From: Winogradskyella forsetii
Lineage (GTDB): Bacteria > Bacteroidota > Bacteroidia > Flavobacteriales > Flavobacteriaceae
NCBI RefSeq assembly: GCF_013394595.1
Contig: NZ_CP053348.1
Coordinates: 248,001-312,000, forward strand
Length of the DNA: 64,000 nt
Direction of reading: 5' to 3'
Positions 1 to 9,843 of the stretch are shown here, in pieces. The position numbers were made by a program, and so were the translations under genes. The notes under the pieces were generated by a model, which was not told the origin of the DNA, did not search any database, and was given only the letters and a program-made list of their open reading frames with translations. The number at the start of each line of letters is the position of its first letter. The stretch's first letter is position 1.

Positions 1-269
1 TCATTTGTATAACTTCGGGTTTTAAGTTTTCCCGATATTCCAACTTCTTTGCCTTTAACAACATACTTCTCTACAATTTCGGCAGTTTTGCCCCAAGCTA
101 CTACGGTATGCCAATTCGTGTCCGTTTGCTTGTTGCCTTCTTTGTCCTTGTAATACTCATTTGTTGCTAATGAAAAACGGGCTACTTTCTTTCCGCTTTC
201 AAGGTTCGTAATGGTTGGCTCTTGTCCAACGTTTCCGATTAACTGTACGTGATTTTTAATAGTACTCAT
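1..269 (-). CDS. ssb: single-stranded DNA-binding protein, 3' part outside window
   Basis: Reading the minus strand from the ATG at 269 gives 89 codons without a stop, running off the window edge. The start MSTIKNHVQLIGNVGQ and the later KVARFSLATNEYY and WHTVVAWGK segments are the OB-fold of bacterial SSB. SSB coats single-stranded DNA in replication and repair; copies on conjugative elements protect the transferred strand. The context (ParB-like and DUF932 genes on the same strand) says this is the element's own copy, not necessarily the chromosomal one. The C-terminal acidic tip cannot be seen. Confidence 0.93.
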   Translation of the reverse strand, partial: MSTIKNHVQLIGNVGQEPTITNLESGKKVARFSLATNEYYKDKEGNKQTDTNWHTVVAWGKTAEIVEKYVVKGKEVGISGKLKTRSYTN

Positions 270-689
270 AATAAAAAGATTTGTGTCTGCTTTGTTACAG
301 ACTGGTTTATATTTCCCTTATTTGATTTAAACTGAATTAAATTTTAAGGGGTGTTTGTTCTTTTCTTCTGTGCGCCGCACAATGGATAGAGTGGGTTTTG
401 TCAAGACTTTTAGGGAATAAATCAGGTGTGTTTGCGACGTAGTAAAATGCTCGCATTTTCAAGGAAGTAGAAACCTTATTTTTCACTAAAACTTGTATAG
501 TCTTTACAAGTTCCATAAGGGCATTAGCAATTCTTTTAAACGCAGTTGCGTTTGAGCGTACCGACAGTTAAGCGAGATAAGCAGCTGTGGTTAAATTAGA
601 ATTGGTTATGTCGTGCCTGTTTTTCGCTGTACCGAAAAACAATAAAGGCTTTATCCATTATAAACCCCTTAAAATGTGTAAGGCAGCGG

Positions 690-759
690 TTCGGTTTTTA
701 AGGATTTTCGAGTAAGGGCTCAAGAAGACCGCGCCGAAAATCCTGTTAAAAAAACCGAA
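690..759. repeat. long inverted repeat, about 20-bp arms
   Basis: The left arm TTCGGTTTTTAAGGATTTTC (690-709) is the reverse complement of the right arm at 736-759 except for a 4-nt bulge on the right side (GAAAATCCT, then GTTA, then AAAAAACCGAA). The loop is about 26 nt. No long T-run follows on either strand, so it does not look like a simple terminator. It could be part of an origin of transfer or a structured RNA of the element. Confidence 0.65.
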
Positions 760-778
760 GTGATGACTTTCCGATGAA

Positions 779-966
779 AAGCGGACTTGATTCACAATTT
801 TGGCAAAGGAATGAAGTGTTCCTTACTAGTCCCGATAGCTATCGGGACGGGAAGGGTTAACGGAATGGAAAGCTAAAATTGGGGATTGTGTCCAAGATAT
901 TTGTAGTGAAGCTCTTTTCCCGAAATGTAGCTTTTCGGGAAATGCAGGGGAATGTGCTGAATGGCT
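779..966. repeat. A-repeat copy 1 of the mobile element
   Basis: First of three related ~140-185 bp sequences (others at 1402-1575 and 3353-3492). It shares with copy 2 the segment from GCGGACTTGATTCAC onward, and with both copies the core GGGAAGGGTTAAC, GGAAAGCTAAAATT (867-880), GATTGTGTCCAAGA and the end GGGAATGTGCTGA. Hairpin 1 here is the palindrome TCCCGATAGCTATCGGGA (830-847). Hairpin 2 is TTCCCGAAA/TTTTCGGGAA. Open frames crossing it on the minus strand are not conserved as proteins. Confidence 0.75.
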
Positions 967-1018
967 TATGAAACTCGCATTAAATAAAAGGGTAATAGTA
1001 CTTTTGTGAATAGTTAGC

Positions 1019-1213
1019 TCACTCTTCAAAAAGTACTTTTTGATTTTTAGAATAAACATTATTTAAAAGTATTTGGTAGTAAAGGGGATGCTTCTCTCTG
1101 TAGTAAGCTAAATGACACTCTGCACTTTCAATAGTATAATTTTCACTACTTAATTGGTAATGTTCTTCGGCTTCTTTTAATGAAATGTTGGATTTTAAAG
1201 CTGTACTTTTCAT
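1019..1213 (-). CDS. hypothetical protein, 64 aa, of the mobile element
   Basis: I do not recognise the family. It is a small soluble protein without a signal peptide or membrane segment, rich in Glu, Ser and Tyr, and probably helical. What supports it as a real gene is its front: the ATG at 1213 sits directly after the same ~150-bp leader that precedes the DUF932 and ParB-like genes, with the ATG in the same place relative to the leader motif TTAAACAAT. It is therefore likely coregulated with them as part of the element's maintenance or transfer functions. Confidence 0.6.
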   Translation of the reverse strand: MKSTALKSNISLKEAEEHYQLSSENYTIESAECHLAYYREKHPLYYQILLNNVYSKNQKVLFEE

Positions 1214-1390
1214 AATGTTAAAATTTTTGGGTTAAACAATATTGAGCAGAAACCAAACGGAAGCTAAAATTCTTGGCTCAAAAGGAAACGGAATAAATAA
1301 GCGAGGGAAGAAGCTATGGCTTTATGCCGTAGTCTTTTGATGGAAGTATTTTACGAGTTTACCTTGCGTGTATATTGTATGATAATTGAT
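1214..1390 (-). promoter_or_regulatory. B-leader copy 1 (upstream of the 64-aa gene)
   Basis: On the minus strand this sequence leads into the ATG at 1213. It matches 4399-4560 and 6461-6640 over about 150 bases, including ATTTATTCCGTTTCCTTTTG, GACTACGGCATAAAGCC and TAAACTCGTAAAATAC. A stem joins TTGAGC and GCTCAA around a loop holding CGGAAGCTAAAATT. No clear TAnnTTTG box is visible within it. It may be promoter plus 5' UTR. Confidence 0.7.
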
Positions 1391-1401
1391 TTCCTTTTTT
1401 A

Positions 1402-1575
1402 AGCGGACTTGATTCACTATTTTGGCTAGGGAATGAAGTGTTCCTTCCCAGCATAGCGGGAAGGGTTAACGAAATGGAAAGCTAAAATTGGGGATTGTGT
1501 CCAAGACTTGCGTAGTGAAGCTCTTTTCTTGGAATGTAGCATTCCGCGAAATGTAGGGAAATGTGCTGAGTGGGT
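1402..1575. repeat. A-repeat copy 2
   Basis: Nearly the same as copy 1 for about 170 bases. The shared core GGAAAGCTAAAATT lies at 1476-1489. Hairpin 1 is a different sequence here, CTTCCC around AGCATAGC closing with GGGAAG, and hairpin 2 is GGAATG-TAG-CATTCC. With copy 3 it brackets the AraC/VOC gene pair in direct orientation. Confidence 0.75.
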
Positions 1576-1806
1576 TATTAAAACTGATATCTATCTTAAA
1601 GTGAATGGGGTGTATTTGTTGCTTGATTAAGCACTTAATCTTTGGTAAAGCACGAAGCCATATTTTTAATTTCCTTTTTAACTTTCTTATCGTCAAAATA
1701 CAAATTAAAAATATGGCTACTTTGCAAATACTCCAAAGCTTTTATTTAAGGACTATTTGCCCTCTTTTTTATATACATTGCTCTGTGTTTGTTCTTTTTC
1801 ACTCGT

Positions 1807-2301
1807 TTAGTTCGGTGAATGCAGACCGATTTTATTTCCTTCCGAATCAAGAAATAGACCGTAATAACCACTTTCATCTGCGTGAAGTGATTTCGGAACA
1901 ATTATTTCGCCACCATTTTTCTCAACTTTATCAAGAATAATTTGAAGATTATCTCCACCATTTAAGTATATAGTTACACCATCAGATGAAGGTTTATAGC
2001 CTTCTGCTTTAATGATAACTCCTGTAACCATTTGTTCTTCATAAGGGAATATCCCCATTTCCATTTCGGGCATTTCTATCTTCTCAATGTTAATGTCTAA
2101 AATTGCTTGATAAAAATTTACTGCTCTTGAAACATCCGTTGCTGGAATTTCAAAGATTGAAATATGACTTTTCATTTCTTTTGTTTTTTGATTAATATTA
2201 GATTCAACCGGGATAGTTTCGGTTTTAGATTTGTTTTGGTTGTTACAGGCTGTAATGCTAAAGGAAAGAATTATGGCTGTACAAAGAATGGATTTTTTCA
2301 T
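1807..2301 (-). CDS. VOC (glyoxalase/bleomycin-resistance fold) lipoprotein
   Basis: The ATG at 2301 gives MKKSILCTAIILSFSITACN, a lipoprotein signal with lipobox ITAC; an upstream start at 2328 would bury it, so 2301 is chosen. After a linker, a VOC domain begins at ISIFEIPATDVSRAVNFYQ and ends at LDSEGNKIGLHSPN, the usual ~115-residue small-molecule or metal binding fold. Its ligand cannot be told. It follows the AraC regulator on the same strand after 75 bases, so the two may form one cargo operon. Most VOC proteins of this type are cytoplasmic, so the membrane anchor is slightly unusual. Confidence 0.85.
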   Translation of the reverse strand: MKKSILCTAIILSFSITACNNQNKSKTETIPVESNINQKTKEMKSHISIFEIPATDVSRAVNFYQAILDINIEKIEMPEMEMGIFPYEEQMVTGVIIKAEGYKPSSDGVTIYLNGGDNLQIILDKVEKNGGEIIVPKSLHADESGYYGLFLDSEGNKIGLHSPN

Positions 2302-2376
2302 TTCGTCCTGTTTGATTTGACAAGACAAATTTAGATTTCGTGCAAATACAAAAATTGTAAAAATGCGACACGCTGA

Positions 2377-3192
2377 CTATTTGTAGAAGAGGGTAGAGAG
2401 TGCCATATTTTCATTGCCTAAAAATTCCTTCGGATTAATTCCGGTAAACTCTTTAAAGTCTTTTATAAAATGCGCTTGGTCGAAGTATTCACTTTCGTAA
2501 GCAATGTCGGTTAGGTTTTCTGACTTTTTATTAAGAAGCATTTTTAGTGCATTTTGCAGTCGGATTACTTTACCCAACTGTTTTGGGCTAACACCAATTT
2601 GTTTTTTGAAATTTCGTTCAAGTTGTCTCCGTTTTGATAAATCTTCTTTAAGGATTTTGCTTATCGAAGCACTTCCATTTGTTGCTAAAAGAGCATCAAT
2701 TGTTGTTTTTACGATATTATTAATTGTAGTTTTTTCATTCAACTTGTCTAAAAAAAAATTTTCAATAATTTCTATTCGTTCACTAGTATTAGTTGCCTCA
2801 ATTATTTTTCGCTCCAAGTCACTAGCAGTTTTTTCTCCGAACAACAATTCTATTGTCGTTTCCTTGTTTGCCAAGTTATTAATGGGCATTGTTACAAAAT
2901 TTGCAAAACCATAAGGGTAAAAACGAATTGCAAAAGTATTCACATATCCTGTAGGTTCTATATAAAAGGGTTCAATTGTCTGTCCGAGAACCATTGCACG
3001 AGGTTGTAGTATAAATTCATCTTTCGAAGTGTATCGTTTAATGTCGTCTCCAAGTATAAACGCCATTTCAATTGTGCCATCAGGAATGATTCGTTGTTTT
3101 TGTACATCAGGTTCAGCAGGAACTTCTAAAGTCCAATAGCAACTGACAAGAGATTCTAAATCCGGATGTGGTTGGAATGTTTGATAGTTCAT
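2377..3192 (-). CDS. AraC-family transcriptional regulator
   Basis: This is a 271-aa protein. The N-terminal ~135 residues (HPDLESLVSCYWTLE, RIIPDGTIEMAFILGD, PRAMVLGQTIEPF) match the sensor part seen in Bacteroidota AraC proteins of the DUF6597 type. The last ~100 residues hold the double helix-turn-helix: SKRRQLERNFKKQIGVSPK, then YFDQAHFIKDFKEFTGINPK. It probably controls the VOC lipoprotein gene downstream. The pair lies between two direct A-repeats and looks like cargo inserted among the element's backbone genes. Confidence 0.92.
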   Translation of the reverse strand: MNYQTFQPHPDLESLVSCYWTLEVPAEPDVQKQRIIPDGTIEMAFILGDDIKRYTSKDEFILQPRAMVLGQTIEPFYIEPTGYVNTFAIRFYPYGFANFVTMPINNLANKETTIELLFGEKTASDLERKIIEATNTSERIEIIENFFLDKLNEKTTINNIVKTTIDALLATNGSASISKILKEDLSKRRQLERNFKKQIGVSPKQLGKVIRLQNALKMLLNKKSENLTDIAYESEYFDQAHFIKDFKEFTGINPKEFLGNENMALSTLFYK

Positions 3193-3352
3193 TGAATAAT
3201 TGATATTTTGTTAAATGACGCACAACTCATTTTTGTGGTCAATAAATATAATGTTATTCGTATTATTAGATAGGATTAATTAATTCTTATAAAAATTTCT
3301 ATTTGAACATTACTGATTAATTTACGTATTTGAATAGGAACTGAAATGTTAT

Positions 3353-3492
3353 TTAGCAGTCTCGAAGTTTCGTGACGGGAAGGGTTAACACTATGGAAAG
3401 CTAAAATTAGGGATTGTGTCCAAGATTATTATAGGGAAGCGCTTTTTCCGGAATGAAGCTTTTCGCGAAATGTAGGGGAATGTGCTGAACGG
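3353..3492. repeat. A-repeat copy 3, in a 370-base gene-free gap
   Basis: The gap 3193-3561 holds this repeat and a terminator only. The match to copies 1 and 2 starts at the first hairpin (GTC-TCGAA-GT-TTCG-TGAC), continues through ACGGGAAGGGTTAAC and GGAAAGCTAAAATT (3395-3408), and ends at GGGGAATGTGCTGA. Only this ~140-base part is shared by all three copies, so it defines the minimal element. Confidence 0.72.
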
Positions 3493-3521
3493 TATTGCTT
3501 TTAAACATAAGTAGCAAGCAC

Positions 3522-3561: not shown

Positions 3562-4398
3562 TTAGGCCATTTCATAAATTTCATCAAACAATTTCTTGTC
3601 CAATCTTTCTTGTTGGCCAAAGCTTTTCTTCAGCGTGTTGTGTAAAACTGCATTGAAGGCATTGTAACCTAACCACAAATTAGGTTCCTCGTTTAGCAAC
3701 AATGCTTCATAATTCAGGATTTCCAGGACTTCACGAGATTTTTTCGAAGGGTCGCTGTTCTTGTCGCTGCATTCATATCTAAAGAGTTTCGTTTTATCAA
3801 GAATGGCTTTTACAAATTCCTGTGTATCGATGATTTTAAATTCTTTCATCTTGTCGAATTTCTTGGTTATCGTATAGAATTCATTGTCCAGAAACTTGTC
3901 GAACAGGTTGTTTAGTCTTGGCATAATAAGGTGTGTATTGTTCTTACTATGCTTGATGGAAAACTCAATTTCGGCTTGTGAAACGTGCAAACCATTGGAA
4001 CATACTTCTCTATAAAATCCGAAGTGTCCAGAAGTCTTTTCACTACCGTCATACGAGTTTTTGAACCGTAGCATTGGCAGTATCACGTCCTTATCGTTCT
4101 TGACGGTAAACTGACTTATATCGTCTATGATAAAGTCGGTAATGAACGACCTATCATTTTTGTTGATGGTGCGCTTGTGAAAGTTCAGTTGTGCATCTGT
4201 CAGCATTTCTTCAGCTTTCTTGAAGAACAATTGGTTTGGAATGTGTCCATAACTGTTAGATACCACATTGACGATTTTACCATTTGAAATGATGGCATTT
4301 TCAAGCCCTCGTCGGGATTCTATCTGTGTCAGAGTTTTTAAGGATTTCATTTCTGATGAAACAAAGATTTCATCCTGTTGCAAATTTTGTAAATACAT
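3562..4398 (-). CDS. DUF932 domain protein of the mobile element
   Basis: A 278-aa protein; residues such as ILPMLRFKNSYDGSEKTSGHFGFYREVCSNG belong to the DUF932 family (quoted here only to identify the core: GFYREVCSNGLHVSQAE). DUF932 proteins are common on plasmids and conjugative elements, often close to ParB-like genes, and resemble phage/plasmid proteins of unknown biochemical role. The start at 4398 (MYLQNLQQDE) is preferred to an ATG at 4422 because it aligns with the ATG position after the same leader in the other two genes. A terminator follows the gene. Confidence 0.85.
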   Translation of the reverse strand: MYLQNLQQDEIFVSSEMKSLKTLTQIESRRGLENAIISNGKIVNVVSNSYGHIPNQLFFKKAEEMLTDAQLNFHKRTINKNDRSFITDFIIDDISQFTVKNDKDVILPMLRFKNSYDGSEKTSGHFGFYREVCSNGLHVSQAEIEFSIKHSKNNTHLIMPRLNNLFDKFLDNEFYTITKKFDKMKEFKIIDTQEFVKAILDKTKLFRYECSDKNSDPSKKSREVLEILNYEALLLNEEPNLWLGYNAFNAVLHNTLKKSFGQQERLDKKLFDEIYEMA

Positions 4399-4560
4399 AG
4401 CTTTTGAATTTAGATTAAACAATATTTGAGCTTAACCCAAACGGAAGCTAAAATCTCAGCTCAAAAGGAAACGGAATAAATAAGTAAGGGAAGAAGCGGT
4501 GGCTTTATGCCGTAGTCTTTTGATGGGTGTATTTTACGAGTTTACCTTTGCGTTACTATT
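4399..4560 (-). promoter_or_regulatory. B-leader copy 2 (upstream of DUF932 gene)
   Basis: Shares AACGGAATAAATAAG, GGCTTTATGCCGTAGTC and ACGAGTTTACCTT (plus-strand view) with the other leaders. The stem around the CGGAAGCTAAAAT loop is TTTGAGCT/AGCTCAAA, one base pair longer than in copies 1 and 3, with both sides changed together. It ends right at the DUF932 start codon. Confidence 0.7.
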
Positions 4561-4663: not shown

Positions 4664-6460
4664 CTACTCTTTCAATCCTTGAATTTGCTTTTCAAGAACT
4701 GTTATTCGCTCTTTCAAACGTTCTTCACGCTTGTTTCTTTTTTCGGCATATTCTTTTTCGATGCCGTCAATCTTGGACTTGTAATAACCTTGCATCGCAT
4801 TGTAGAATGAAATGTTAGTCAGATTATTAACGTGATTGCTTTCGCCAAAATGCACTTGCTTCGTTAGTATATACCGTATCAACTTATGAAAGATTTCCTT
4901 TTTAAACTTCTTTTTGAAACTCTCAACAATTTCTTCATCTGTCATCTTGGATGTATTGCCCAATAAATTTGAAAAGAATCTTTGTCGTCCAACATAATCT
5001 ACATTGTTTTCATACAACGTCAATGAGAATGCTACCATTTCATCCACCGAAAGTGTTTTCTTCGTATCAATGTATTTGGTGTCTCTAATCATTTCAACAA
5101 CTTCTTCAAACTGCTTGTTGTTCTCTATTTGCTTCTTGCGTATTTCCCTTTCGTTGATTTTAATTATCTGTTCTTCAGGGGAACAATCTGCCATTTTTCT
5201 GTTTTCCAAAGGTGCTGAATACGATGTCGATTCATTTTTGGACTGTTCAACAATCTTTATAAAGACTTCTTTGTGTCTGTATGTTTCAGGATGGAACACA
5301 ATACCTTTTACAAATTCATTTTCTTTAGCGGAATTGTATTTTTCCAATTCTTCTTCGTATTGCTGTAAGGCTTCATCCAGCTCAGCTTTAAATTCATCTT
5401 CGGAATAATCGTAATGTTGGTATTCTTTCTTGATGTCCTCAATTGTTGGCTTTATCGGATTTTCTATGATTTCAACATCATCCAGCAAATAGACTTTCAA
5501 ACCGTTCTTTTCCAATTGTGAAATAATCAGCTGATTGTTTTCCTCGTCTGCCCAATACTGTCGTATTTCAGGAATTAACAGTATGTTCTCTTGTTTCGAT
5601 TTTTCAATCAAATTCAAGAACGACTTGCTTTTCTTCGTTTCATAACAAGCTGATTTTGTACAAACCATTTTGCCATCGCCGAAAAGATTACCTTGATTTG
5701 CCGCGTTAAACGGACATTCAATACAAGAGCCTACTTTTGGCACCAATTTCTTATCATTTACATCAAAAGATGCTTTTTCCAAATCATAGGTCTGGTCTTT
5801 AATCATCCTGTTCACCTGATGGGCACTAAAATCTTCGCCCATCGTTTCCAACATCATCTGCTGTTCTTCTGGTTCAAAAAGTGCAACACCCACACCTAAC
5901 GAAATCGTCATTTCGCCATTACGAACAAAATGCTTAAAACCTTCAATTAAACCAGCCAGCTTTAATCGTTGTCTGATAAAGTTATCTGTTCTTCCCAATC
6001 GCTTTGCAATTTCTGTAGGCGCATATTTTTCGCTTAAGTAAGCAATCGCCTCAGCTTCTTCGGTAGGTTCAACATCCTGCCTTTGCAGATTTTCGATGAT
6101 TTGAATTTCAAGAACATCGTTGTTCTTATATTCCCTGACAATACACGGAATAGTTTTCTTGTCGGCCATCTTACTTGCTCGATACCTACGTTCGCCCATC
6201 ACGATGATAAATTCGTTTCCAGATTTTCGGACTGTAATAGGCTGTAGAACACCGTGCTTTTTGACGCTTTCGGAAAGCTGTTGCAGATGTGCTTCATTAA
6301 AAGTCTTTCTGGGTTGCATCGGGTCGGGAATGACCTTTGCAGTTGATAGGTTCTCAATCTGAAGCCCAATCGCTTTTTGTGTCAATTTTTCTTTGACTTC
6401 TTTCTTGGCGGTGGTAATTTTTTTACCGCTCTTTCTTGTGGTACTCGCTTTTGTTGTCAT
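4664..6460 (-). CDS. ParB/RepB/Spo0J-type protein of the mobile element
   Basis: A 598-aa protein, about twice the length of chromosomal ParB. Residues ~35-135 are the ParB N-terminal domain: PRKTFNEAHLQQLSESVKKH, the GERRYRA nucleotide-binding box and IENLQRQDVEPTEEA. A helix-turn-helix follows (TEIAKRLGRTDNFIRQRLK). The middle contains a Cys cluster (CIECP...C..SAC) that may bind metal. The C-terminal half is charged and coiled-coil-like. Such long ParB proteins mark Bacteroidota conjugative elements and probably act in segregation or regulation rather than chromosome partition; no ParA lies in the window. The start at 6460 (MTTKAS) is chosen over 6469 because it fits the leader alignment. 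Confidence 0.92.
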   Translation of the reverse strand: MTTKASTTRKSGKKITTAKKEVKEKLTQKAIGLQIENLSTAKVIPDPMQPRKTFNEAHLQQLSESVKKHGVLQPITVRKSGNEFIIVMGERRYRASKMADKKTIPCIVREYKNNDVLEIQIIENLQRQDVEPTEEAEAIAYLSEKYAPTEIAKRLGRTDNFIRQRLKLAGLIEGFKHFVRNGEMTISLGVGVALFEPEEQQMMLETMGEDFSAHQVNRMIKDQTYDLEKASFDVNDKKLVPKVGSCIECPFNAANQGNLFGDGKMVCTKSACYETKKSKSFLNLIEKSKQENILLIPEIRQYWADEENNQLIISQLEKNGLKVYLLDDVEIIENPIKPTIEDIKKEYQHYDYSEDEFKAELDEALQQYEEELEKYNSAKENEFVKGIVFHPETYRHKEVFIKIVEQSKNESTSYSAPLENRKMADCSPEEQIIKINEREIRKKQIENNKQFEEVVEMIRDTKYIDTKKTLSVDEMVAFSLTLYENNVDYVGRQRFFSNLLGNTSKMTDEEIVESFKKKFKKEIFHKLIRYILTKQVHFGESNHVNNLTNISFYNAMQGYYKSKIDGIEKEYAEKRNKREERLKERITVLEKQIQGLKE

Positions 6461-6640
6461 AATACTCAAATTTTAGATTAAACAATATTTGAGCAGAAAC
6501 CAAACGGAAGATAAAATCTTGGCTCAAAAGGAAACGGAATAAATAAGCGATGGAAGAGACGTTGGCTTTATGCCGTAGTCTTTTGATGGAAGTATTTTAC
6601 GAGTTTAAATTGCGGTCATATTGTATGATAATAAACCCCC
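6461..6640 (-). promoter_or_regulatory. B-leader copy 3 (upstream of ParB-like gene)
   Basis: Closest to copy 1: TTTGAGCAGAAACCAAACGG and GATGGAAGTATTTTACGAG are shared (plus-strand view). Reading the minus strand, the GCTCAAAT arm of the stem could instead pair with ATTTGAG just before the ATG. That alternative fold is seen only in this copy. Confidence 0.7.
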
Positions 6641-6705
6641 TTAGTTAAATTTTTATTTTCAATTCATTGGTAATATATTAGTTTAATATTTATTGGTAAT
6701 AAATG

Positions 6706-6734
6706 TTGTTAATTGAAAAGAATTATTATTTTTG
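6706..6734 (+). promoter_or_regulatory. promoter at the end of the mobile element, reading outward
   Basis: TTG at 6706-6708 and TATTTTTG at 6727-6734, spaced by 18, fit the Bacteroidota TTG / TAnnTTTG consensus. Transcription would begin near 6741 and could stop at the terminator at 6893-6920, giving an RNA of about 180 nt. Confidence 0.5.
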
Positions 6735-6843
6735 CATCAGACGAATCAAATTGAACTACAACTCACGAGAATTAGTTCACAAATCGTCAACATAGATAAA
6801 AATATTTGGCAGAAGTGCCACAGCGACAGGGCTCGCCAAGCAA

Positions 6844-6866
6844 GGTTCGAGTCCCGTCCAGACCGC
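6844..6866 (+). repeat. tRNA-Asp 3'-end fragment, putative attachment site of the element
   Basis: GGTTCGAGTCCCGTCCAGAC followed by CGC is what I know as the T-loop, 3' T-stem and acceptor strand of bacterial tRNA-Asp(GUC). The 5' part of a tRNA is missing upstream. Elements that integrate into the 3' end of a tRNA gene leave exactly such a duplicated end at the far boundary, so this probably marks the right end of the element. The intact tRNA-Asp and integrase would lie left of the window. Confidence 0.6.
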
Positions 6867-6892
6867 TATCCCGAATCATCGGGAGCAAAATT

Positions 6893-6920
6893 AAAGCTTC
6901 AAGAAATTGAGGCTTTTTTT
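6893..6920 (+). terminator. intrinsic terminator downstream of the tRNA-Asp fragment
   Basis: AAGCTTCAA and TTGAGGCTT pair over a GAAA loop (one T-G wobble) and run into seven T. It is plausibly the original terminator of the tRNA-Asp gene before integration. Confidence 0.75.
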
Positions 6921-7287
6921 AAGCAAAGTTCCCAAGGACTTGGGACTAAAGATGTTGTGTTGTTCTAGGATAAATCCTAGAGTAGTTGTAAGATTCCCAA
7001 TCAAATTGGGAGCTTACCGATGAAAGGCTTTCCTTTTTTCTGTTCCGATAGCTATCGGAAGAAGATTGGGATGCTTTTTTGTTTTAGGACGTTTTGGTTT
7101 ACTTATACGAACCATCTTTTATTAATTTCTGATTGATCCCGCTTACCTCAATTAACTAAGAAATTTAAAAGTACTTCGTCGGATCTAAACCCTAAGTTAT
7201 CAACAAGTTATAAACATAAATTATGCGTTTAGTCGAACAATGAGAGCGTTTAATCGGTAAAACATTAGGAAATCACAAAATTACGCT

Positions 7288-7812: not shown

Positions 7813-9843
7813 TTGAGGTCAAATTTCATTAAATTTTCTTTGCTATTTATAGTTACTTTCTGTGGTTACACTCAATCTTTAACAGAAAAAAAACTCTTAG
7901 ATAGTATTCAAAATCTTTTTCATTCTGCAGATAATGAAGATATATCAAATATAAAAACATTTAAACTCTTAAAGCAAGCAAATGAAATTGCCAAGAAGCT
8001 AAAAAATGATTCTATTATTCTACTGACTCAAAAAAAGATTCGTAATTATTATTATAAAGAGAGAGATTTCGATAAATATATTGACGCTAACCATAAAATC
8101 ATATCTCTTGCAGAAAGGTTAAGTGATTCAAGTTCTTTAGCACATGCTTACAATGCTCTTGGATACTCTTATTTTTTAACAGAAAAAAAGGATAGTTCTT
8201 ACCATTTTTATCTAAAAGCAGTTGTCATCTTTGATAAAATAAATGCGGAAGTTGATCTTTCTTATGCTTTAGGCAGCTTGTCAAAATTGCAATTAGATGG
8301 AAAGGATTATTACGGTTCTGGAGAGAATGCAATTAAAGCTCTAAAATTATTAAACGGTGTTGAAGAGACAAATGATATTTTAGATCAAAAATGGATTCTT
8401 TACAATACATTATCAAGTATTTCAGACGCTTTAAATGATAATAGTCAGGCTTTAGCCTATCACGATCAAGCTCTTGCTGTGGCAGGTCGTATGGAAAATG
8501 ATTTCAATAATGGTATATACACCTTGAATAATATAGGTTATTTGAAGCGTAAACAGGGATTATATAAGGAAGCTAAAGAAATTTTTACTGATATTTTAAA
8601 TGAAAAAAATCTATTTGAGGATGATCCTACTTTTTTCGCCTTAATTTTAGAAAATTTAGCATATACCAATTACCTCTCTGGGTCTTATGATCGAGAAAAA
8701 ACAATTGATATGTTCGAAAGGTCTTATGAAATAGCTGACAGCTTAGATGATGAAATTACGAAAACTGGAGCAGCCATAAGCATGGCTAAATTTTATAAAG
8801 GAATAGATGACAAAAAAAATGCATTTAGATTTTCAAAGAAGGCGTATGATCTTTCAAAAAGAATAAAGAAGACCGATATTTTATTAGAATCTATGGTTTT
8901 GATGTCGGATCTAACTGAGGGCAATGAATCAAAACAATATTTAAATGAGCATATTAAGCTAACAGATAGTTTGCTTAATGAAGAAAGAAGTGTAAGAAAT
9001 AAGTACGCCAGAATAGAATACGAAACCGACCAATTAGAAGCCGAAAACAAGCAAATCTCCAAAGAAAACTTATACTTATTAATATTATCCATAGGTTTAC
9101 TTTTAACCGCAATATTGGTTTATGTGGTAATATCCCAACGGTCAAAAAACAGGAAATTAAAGCTTATGCAGGTTCAGCAAAAGGCAAATGAAGATATCTA
9201 TAATCTCATGCTGCGTCAACAAGATAAGGTAGATGAAGCCAGAGCAAAGGAAAAAATAAGGGTGTCCAAAGAATTACACGATGGGGTGTTGGGCCCGCTT
9301 TTTGGTGCCAGATTAAGCTTGGATAGTATTAATTTTAATGAGGGAAAAGAAGCCATGATGGCCAGAGCAAAATACATCGGTCAGTTGCAATCCATTGAAC
9401 AGGATATCCGAAAAATTTCACATGATTTAAGCGTAGATTTTGAATCAGGATCTAGCTTTATCGATATCGTAACTGAGCTTATTGAAACGCAAACAAAAGC
9501 ATACAATTTAGAGCACGAGTTTAATTCTACGGATGCTATAAGTTGGGATTTGGTATCTAACAAAACCAAAATCAATATTTATAGAATCATTCAAGAATCA
9601 ATGCAGAATATCTATAAACACGCAAATGCAAAAGCTATAGAAATTAGCATTTCGTTAGAAAATGATTTAATTTGCTTGGATATTATAGATGATGGCGATG
9701 GCTTTGATACCACTAAAAGCAAAAAAGGGATTGGCTTGAAAAACATGACATCCCGTGTAGAAGATATTGACGGAAAAATTAGTTTTATATCACAACCAGG
9801 CAATGGAACACAAGTGAATGTTAAGATTCCCATCCCTAATTAA
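7813..9843 (+). CDS. TPR-containing sensor histidine kinase (HisKA_3 type)
   Basis: A 676-aa kinase. A signal peptide (LLFIVTFCGYTQS) leads a periplasmic region of about six TPR-like repeats (residues ~30-390), then a coiled coil, one membrane segment (~420-440) and a cytoplasmic kinase. The phosphorylated His is H489 in KELHDGVLGPL, a NarL-partner (HisKA_3) dimerisation motif. The ATPase shows N599, DGDGF (627-631) and GIGL (639-642). The start is TTG at 7813; no ATG lies in a suitable place upstream of the signal peptide. The response regulator gene begins 10 bases after the stop, so both are one operon. The signal is unknown. Confidence 0.93.
   Translation: MRSNFIKFSLLFIVTFCGYTQSLTEKKLLDSIQNLFHSADNEDISNIKTFKLLKQANEIAKKLKNDSIILLTQKKIRNYYYKERDFDKYIDANHKIISLAERLSDSSSLAHAYNALGYSYFLTEKKDSSYHFYLKAVVIFDKINAEVDLSYALGSLSKLQLDGKDYYGSGENAIKALKLLNGVEETNDILDQKWILYNTLSSISDALNDNSQALAYHDQALAVAGRMENDFNNGIYTLNNIGYLKRKQGLYKEAKEIFTDILNEKNLFEDDPTFFALILENLAYTNYLSGSYDREKTIDMFERSYEIADSLDDEITKTGAAISMAKFYKGIDDKKNAFRFSKKAYDLSKRIKKTDILLESMVLMSDLTEGNESKQYLNEHIKLTDSLLNEERSVRNKYARIEYETDQLEAENKQISKENLYLLILSIGLLLTAILVYVVISQRSKNRKLKLMQVQQKANEDIYNLMLRQQDKVDEARAKEKIRVSKELHDGVLGPLFGARLSLDSINFNEGKEAMMARAKYIGQLQSIEQDIRKISHDLSVDFESGSSFIDIVTELIETQTKAYNLEHEFNSTDAISWDLVSNKTKINIYRIIQESMQNIYKHANAKAIEISISLENDLICLDIIDDGDGFDTTKSKKGIGLKNMTSRVEDIDGKISFISQPGNGTQVNVKIPIPN

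Follow-up and report, generated by a model that had tools for sequence, protein, structure and literature searches.

A covarying two-hairpin repeat upstream of ssb in MobB-type integrative and conjugative elements of Flavobacteriaceae: a candidate initiation structure on transferred single-stranded DNA

At the left end of a 64,000-nt stretch of the Winogradskyella forsetii genome (hereafter the window; positions 248001-312000 of the genome's single 4.51-Mb contig), three copies of a non-coding repeat family of about 167 nt, here termed element A, were found upstream of ssb and further transcription units. Most single copies examined fold on the plus strand into two domains, each an imperfect hairpin, and this strand, which is antisense to the neighbouring genes, is under selection. 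From the observed fold, strand, covariation, position and orientation of element A we propose, with roughly even confidence, that it is a Frpo/sso-like initiation structure on the single-stranded transferred strand (T-strand) of MobB-relaxase integrative and conjugative elements (ICEs) of Flavobacteriaceae, with single-stranded DNA (ssDNA) as the presumed active molecule.

A sequence-only reading of this region had reported a repeat in three copies, which was borne out by ungapped repeat units at 848-973, 1457-1582 (87%) and 3376-3501 (82%), by a 31-nt core pattern with three matches in the window and none in 100 shuffles, and by a covariance model (R1), whose matches, converted from genome positions, provide the copy coordinates. 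A1 (782..961, plus strand, 168.8 bits) lies upstream of ssb and comprises domain I at 783-893, with an extended tip (GTCCCGATAGCTATCGGGAC), and domain II at 910-958. A2 (1404..1570, plus strand, 189.1 bits), with domain I at 1405-1502 and domain II at 1519-1567, lies upstream of ORF64, an element termed B being situated in between. The third copy, A3 (3313..3489, plus strand, 88.1 bits), located upstream of an AraC-VOC unit, is degenerate: recognisable from about 3353 and with domain II at 3438-3486, it has lost the 5' arm of domain I and scores 88 bits versus 189 for A2 and 169 for A1. In this genome R1 detects these three copies and no others, all within one 3-kb stretch. The computed fold of A1 beats all 200 shuffles on the plus strand (z -3.69; z -4.58 as DNA with DNA parameters) and that of A2 beats 198 of 200 (z -2.93, two equal or better), while the fold of A3 itself is no better than its shuffles (z -0.26, 82/200 equally good). 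The copy extents given in the earlier reading proved too short, as element A begins at CGGACTT, about 100 nt ahead of GATTGTGTCC; the hairpin sequences it quoted are present in the window, except that GGGAATGTGCTGA reads GGGAAATGTGCTGA in copy 2. The palindromic tip of A1, TCCCGATAGCTATCGGGA, was considered as an element-specific feature and discarded, given five near matches elsewhere in the genome (27-30 nt, 90-93%).

In domain I, the outer stem is formed by GGAC-T-TAATTC-A-CAATTTTGGCT, which pairs with a 3' arm of AGCTAAAATTG-G-GGATTG-T-GTCC; inward of it follow short helices and internal loops and then a tip, CCTTCCC/GGGAAGG, sometimes carrying an extra hairpin. Domain II pairs AGC-C-TTTCCC with GGGGAA-G-GCT, followed by similar internal loops and a short or long tip. 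The "fixed core" from GGAAAGCTAAAATT to GATTGTGTCC that had been described between two variable hairpins is hence not unpaired: most of it pairs with GGACTTRATTCACAATTTTGGC, the two forming the 3' and 5' arms, respectively, of a hairpin of about 100 nt. The two variable hairpins, although truly paired, are only the variable tips of the two larger domains. The observation itself is thus real and larger than first described, while its earlier interpretation as a whole is partly supported.

Tip length differs between subfamilies, and RNAalifold applied to a mixed alignment of 72 copies returned merely 15 pairs at -3.3 kcal/mol; splitting the copies by tip length then gave a shared fold. Among 110 matches to the core pattern, 17 without flanking similarity were dropped (by eye partly traG coding matches, partly true diverged copies), and 93 copies were split into 29 short, 37 long and 13 A' copies, with 14 unanchorable ones set aside. 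In the alignment of the 29 short copies, made from sequence only with MAFFT but scored against a structure derived from the same copies, 96.8% of cells are paired versus 33-54% when the partners are slid, 10 of 47 pairs are doubly changed, and not one of 500 shuffles attains even a single one of the five measures observed. Of these 29 copies, 27 have GGAC/GTCC as the closing pairs of domain I, the remaining two showing one altered, still paired position each. The broader alignment comprises 118 distinct rows fitted to the covariance model and shows the strong covariation whose absence would have spoken against the earlier claim: 94.3% of cells are paired, two-sided changes occur at 31 of 47 pairs, and 238 doubly changed cells were observed versus 53 in shuffles that leave relatedness in place. 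Again 0/500 shuffles reach the observed values, so that the maintenance of pairing under sequence change, taken beforehand as the mark of a selected structure, is supported in both sets. A loop module, GNA-AT-GNA, recurs in both domains: an A-T/T-A dinucleotide pair has a GNA trinucleotide on either side of it, on each of the two strands. Among the 115 rows with letters at each GNA site, GNA occupies the eight flanks in 95 to 111 rows each, with a variable middle base, while making up 12% of the trinucleotides of the element overall. We take this pattern to be that expected for sheared G·A pairs around a free middle base; the module can form in DNA and in RNA.

The earlier conclusion that the repeat is not coding is also the likelier reading. 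Minus-strand open reading frames (ORFs) of 77 and 76 aa overlap A1 and A2, and an ORF of at least 70 aa covers more than half of 41 out of 125 copies; a conserved protein fragment was nevertheless judged unlikely, as 109 of 196 distinct copies have no frame that is open throughout and no single frame is common to most.

The strand under selection could be read from the wobble pairs. At the model pairs of the 118 distinct rows, 4251 cells are Watson-Crick on the plus strand, 792 are G·T, 49 are A·C and 258 are of other kinds; since a G·T on the plus strand is an A·C on the minus strand, the ratio of 792 to 49 shows that it is the single-stranded plus strand that is selected, rather than a cruciform or a minus-strand transcript. 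Consensus energies agree, with -82.4 (plus) vs -50.6 (minus) for the 29 short copies, -80.5 vs -54.2 for the 37 long and -52.3 vs -32.0 for the 13 A' copies, and the plus strand is the stabler one in 191/192 copies with RNA parameters and in 183/192 with DNA parameters. A 5' leader regulating the downstream mRNA from the minus strand, for example by antitermination, would fit the location of A between transcription units and upstream of ssb, but it is the opposite strand that is selected, as both the wobble counts and the consensus energies show, and we regard such a leader as highly improbable. A 3' processing signal, one of the functions suggested previously, is likewise unlikely, since the neighbouring genes are encoded antisense to the strand under selection. 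A fold on the antisense strand has two possible carriers: ssDNA, in the form of the T-strand, and plus-strand RNA.

The second carrier would make A, perhaps together with two neighbouring structures termed C and D, a trans-acting structured RNA, transcribed from the plus strand as a small RNA antisense to the genes and regulating or protecting the element; we consider this a possible, though clearly tentative, explanation. It accords with the tolerance of G·U pairs and with the purine-rich internal loops, which are common in structured RNA, as well as with a strand gap that is larger with RNA parameters (-54.5 vs -37.6) than with DNA parameters (-22.9 vs -18.8). Moreover, 31 tandem pairs of A are separated by 41-44 nt (43 nt in 21 of them), with many of the 30 linkers examined looking, by eye, like a small hairpin, e.g. 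ATCCT..AGGAT, and the C domain of about 330 nt beside A1 is likewise folded on the plus strand. Such an RNA explains neither the placement of A upstream of opposite-strand units nor its relation to the oriT-like site described below, save by common descent. In the 5' flanks the promoter box TAnnTTTG is not enriched on the plus strand (9/97 vs 9.7 in shuffles; 97 of the 98 copies left after removing 64 C/D-like and 34 tandem 5' flanks), as it might be if A were an ordinary plus-strand RNA gene. A structured RNA had been among the functions suggested from the sequence and retains this tentative standing, while the strand, the location upstream of genes and the position relative to the oriT-like site point rather to single-stranded transfer DNA, an option absent from that reading.

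Membership in a conjugative element, which had been assumed earlier, is supported by a neighbourhood of MobB, MobA, TraG and SSB genes and by the orientation to MobB. In the first 100 loci, the gene order is mostly TraG-MobB-MobA-(DUF6876)-SSB, then about 490 nt, then A, often followed by DUF932-ORF64-ParB, and the recognised genes are opposite in strand to A wherever both were found; MobB (NF041495), a BfmA-type MobA (NF041200), a VirD4-like coupling protein (Pfam) and SSB were confirmed by profiles. Of 60 loci in a further set, the majority of them from other genera, most again showed the order MobB-MobA-SSB-A, the exceptions having other 5' neighbours. Within 349 Flavobacteriaceae genomes, 82 carry both A and MobB, 20 A only, 13 MobB only and 234 neither (Fisher p 5e-46). 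Among the matches listed, 118 of 150 A copies lie within 12 kb of one of 150 MobB genes (median 2.4 kb), and all 118 are upstream of MobB on the opposite strand; an earlier count with 103 of the 150 listed MobB matches had given 113/113 opposite and upstream and was redone with all 150. A 5'-side neighbour of at least 100 aa is present for 189 of 201 non-redundant copies (12 have none), pointing away from A in 174 cases and lying on the same strand in 15; the 174 comprise SSB (127), ParB (5), DUF932 (3), MobA (2), AraC (1) and other genes (36). A first count on 125 non-redundant copies with a 70-aa cut-off had yielded 101/113 opposite and 12 on the same strand, nine of the latter being ORFs of 74-88 aa.

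In the stretch separating MobA from the following gene, conservation is highest at an inverted repeat, GTAACA..TGTTAC (with variants such as GTAACG..CGTTAC), followed by CCTCTTGCTATTCC (the CTCTTGC site). In the genome of the window this oriT-like site lies at 8978-8996 of locus L084, about 1.0 kb left of the window and next to mobA. The patch at L084:8960-8996, comprising the inverted repeat and CCTCTTGCTATTCC, shows paired changes in the repeat by eye and is a candidate oriT of MobB-type Flavobacteriaceae ICEs. The site lies on the strand of A and 5' of A in 106/106 patches, at a median distance of 1.8 kb, and in 99/99 distinct patches from loci with an aligned A once identical ones were removed; eight further patches belong to loci without an aligned A. 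In RP4-type oriTs, an inverted repeat is followed by the nick, and transfer leads away from the repeat. From the oriT-like motif and the analogy with RP4, the T-strand is predicted to be the strand on which A folds, and ssb-A-DUF932-ParB would then form the leading region. No mapped nic site for the MobB relaxase family was found in the literature searched, including the accessible portion of PMC10865816.

According to the initiation reading, the T-strand would enter the recipient and A would fold into its two imperfect hairpins. This would happen upstream of ssb and, where an ICE has several copies, upstream of further leading-region units as well. Folded A is predicted to recruit the transcription (or priming) machinery of the recipient with the T-strand as template; ssb and its neighbours would be made before the DNA becomes double-stranded, and second-strand synthesis might also be primed. 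We favour ssDNA over RNA as the active molecule because A keeps a constant position relative to the oriT-like site and sits in front of transcription units, and because TAnnTTTG is not enriched on the plus strand of its 5' flanks.

Parallels exist in known conjugative systems, among them Frpo1 and Frpo2 of F. The available text of PMC9849209 places Frpo2 upstream of ssbF and reports that its deletion abolished the early rise in expression, while in the accessible part of a 2024 leading-region survey Frpo lies upstream of SSB, the listed leading-gene classes are all on the T-strand, and candidates were found via similarity to known Frpo/ssi and a -35/-10/UP consensus (PMC11541004); its main text, as far as accessible, contains no word beginning with "Bacteroid". 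Like the Frpo/ssi elements of F and related plasmids, A lies in the predicted leading region, on a T-strand predicted from the oriT-like motif, upstream of ssb and other early genes, sometimes in multiple copies that each precede their own unit, and folds on the template strand of the genes into stem-loops that are computed to be stable as ssDNA. Unlike them, it has neither canonical -35/-10 nor TAnnTTTG boxes, contains two domains with GNA-AT-GNA loops, has no plasmid sequence match and occurs in a different phylum. It is likened to Frpo by description and not letter by letter. A Frpo-type promoter with canonical boxes was also considered; as the stem does not rebuild such boxes, A was not filed as a Frpo member. 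Of 143 copies with a GTGTCC anchor, 52 agree with TAnnTTTG at five of its six fixed positions within the 3' arm (shuffled arms: 13%), and none agrees at all six.

With sso1 of ICEBs1 and rolling-circle sso elements, A shares the multi-hairpin non-coding DNA and the predicted action on the transferred single strand (in the case of sso1 in an ICE); its stem-loops lie on the predicted transferred strand, a median 1.8 kb from the oriT-like site. It differs in being repeated per transcription unit, in its MobB relaxase and Bacteroidota host, and no sequence relation was found. That A might start second-strand synthesis on the T-strand, and not act mainly as a promoter, is suggested by sso1 of ICEBs1, for which the accessible text of PMC4595007 describes an orientation-specific element with three stem-loops predicted when single-stranded. 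A single origin would be enough, whereas copies of A precede one transcription unit after another, and A1 has no match among plasmid sequences (72,556 PLSDB records, E<=1e-3); we therefore consider a pure single-strand origin rather unlikely.

Several findings weigh against an initiation structure on the T-strand. On the minus strand, TAnnTTTG occurs in 2 of 192 A copies versus 7.3 in shuffles, TTGACA in none versus 8.4 and TATAAT in 5 versus 14, and TAnnTTTG is not enriched on the minus strand of the 5' flanks either (4/97). The direction of the T-strand rests on analogy, and an ssb transcript starting from A1 would have a leader of about 500 nt. Moreover, 13 of 95 MobB genomes lack A and 20 of 102 A genomes lack a MobB match, only 88 of the 150 listed MobB genes (a lower bound) are within 12 kb of a listed A, the 5' neighbour is on the strand of A for 15 of 189 copies, and DUF932 and ParB in the window are preceded by a B element, with no A directly upstream. 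As ICE genes lie mostly on one strand and share common descent, the orientation counts are not independent events. Finally, the z-scores of A1 are nearly equal on both strands (plus -3.69, minus -3.60), as is expected for a long hairpin.

A recombination site, also proposed in the sequence-only reading, found no support. In integrons, attC sites carry paired RYYYAAC/GTTRRRY boxes at the hairpin ends. Domain I of A ends in GGAC/GTCC, without such boxes, and the orientation of A to MobB is constant. A site of the integron attC type, or else a MITE/REP-type repeat spreading through genomes and bordering modules by chance, would account for copies that delimit cargo modules (A2 and A3 in the window enclose AraC-VOC), for the variable tips and for the 15 of 189 copies in other contexts. 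However, the three copies of the window's genome lie in one 3-kb stretch, and strand-specific covariation is unexpected for a spreading repeat. We regard this explanation as very unlikely.

Element A appears to belong to no described family, as the earlier reading had supposed: it shares with Rfam structured non-coding RNAs a covarying, G·U-tolerant fold of about 167 nt, but no Rfam family matches A at the gathering score. Across the 64-kb window, the search at this score returned nothing except a distant tRNA, and relaxing the E-value yielded only matches scoring well under the threshold. Viral contigs scanned with 15-mers gave 45 stretches, none of which, among the contexts listed, resembles element A. 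In the literature on ssDNA promoters (Bacteroid*, leading region) and on non-coding elements of flavobacterial ICEs, with subscription journals mostly uncovered, no title or abstract describes element A. Within this literature, A might be the first single-stranded-DNA initiation element of Bacteroidota, with a new design in which two hairpins carry a repeated GNA-AT-GNA:GNA-AT-GNA non-Watson-Crick module instead of canonical boxes, alone or in phased tandem arrays, and present it to a dedicated factor by which early transcription or priming would be initiated on the incoming T-strand; this we put forward only tentatively.

The 126-nt repeat unit was matched in 15 of 68 genomes of the same genus. 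The exact 31-nt pattern occurs in 86 stretches of the named GTDB collection, 80 of which are listed as loci L104-L183; the genera in their titles we take to be Flavobacteriaceae, with one title stating Cytophagaceae and one Flavobacteriales. Under stricter filters, R1 detected element A in 102 of 349 Flavobacteriaceae genomes, representing 82 of 237 genera, and in a class-wide draw of 395 genomes seven matched, six of them Flavobacteriaceae including the window's own and one (G748) from another family. The scan with the model took in 98 of the 100 loci L084-L183, L105 and L123 being excluded as overlapping others; of 172 matches, 150 were alignable, and the other 22 comprised 20 matches lying opposite a strong copy on the other strand and two additional weak copies, of 48 and 46 bits. 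The spacing of exactly 609 bp between two A copies that is seen in the window recurs in L112, L118, L154, L163 and L183 (Maribacter, Nonlabens, Mesonia and one Flavobacteriaceae metagenome-assembled genome), there too with AraC-VOC cargo, and probably reflects a recently spread ICE.

All recognised genes around the three copies are on the minus strand. The gene ssb (3..269, complete in L084; PF00436, TIGR00621) is the first gene downstream of A1 in the promoter sense. ORF64 (1019..1213) has no family match and lies near DUF932 and ParB genes in relatives. The cargo consists of a VOC/glyoxalase-fold protein (1807..2328, PF00903) and an AraC-type regulator (2377..3192, PF12833), and is followed by a DUF932 protein (3562..4422, PF06067; TIGR03299 below cut-off) and a ParB-family protein (4664..6469, PF02195, TIGR00180). 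In L087, a 136-aa protein (6488-6898) with a weak NOV_C match (PF13020, 23.7 bits) is encoded directly behind A; it recurs as a unit at a distance of 75-76 nt, with similar ORFs in L085, L111, L160 and L283.

Further structures accompany element A. The C domain (341..675, about 330 nt, plus strand favoured) lies between ssb and A1 and is closed by ATTTTAAGGGGT/ACCCCTTAAAAT. The whole stretch of about 490 nt between ssb and A1 is strongly folded on the plus strand (RNA z -4.5, DNA z -6.4; minus strand RNA z -3.6). In 45 aligned loci (clustered at 0.97), 94.0% of the pairs of a consensus derived from the same sequences are formed, with two-sided changes at 45 of 182 pairs and 987 G·T versus 114 A·C cells. 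Covarying, larger than A and adjacent to ssb, the C domain could be a separate functional RNA or ssDNA structure. Just 5' of A1, folding indicates a D hairpin (690..760, plus strand; TTCGGTTTTTAAGGATTTTCG .. CGAAAATCCTGTTAAAAAAACCGAA). The B element is a leader of about 140 nt on the minus strand, shared between a copy directly upstream of ORF64 (1226..1365; repeats D2, D4, D11) and one directly upstream of the DUF932 gene (4409..4548, from the repeat search); a third, directly upstream of the ParB gene (6470..6612), was recognised by eye and is unaligned. The fold of the first B copy has a z-score of about -1.4 on either strand, and 13 of 196 distinct A copies have a B element on their 5' side at a distance of no more than 600 nt. 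Just past the B copy upstream of ParB, the stretch 6820-6960 resembles the 3' end of a tRNA (GGTTCGAGTCCCGTCCAG) and may mark the att site at which the ICE ends on its right, within a tRNA gene; ARAGORN predicted no tRNA gene there.

The expression of the first genes from incoming conjugative DNA has been studied mainly in F-like plasmids. The presence of element A before ssb in many flavobacterial elements provides a concrete candidate for an early-expression structure in a phylum with a different promoter code, and its covariance model offers a means of finding leading regions. Should A act as an RNA instead, it would represent a widespread RNA family of mobile elements outside Rfam.

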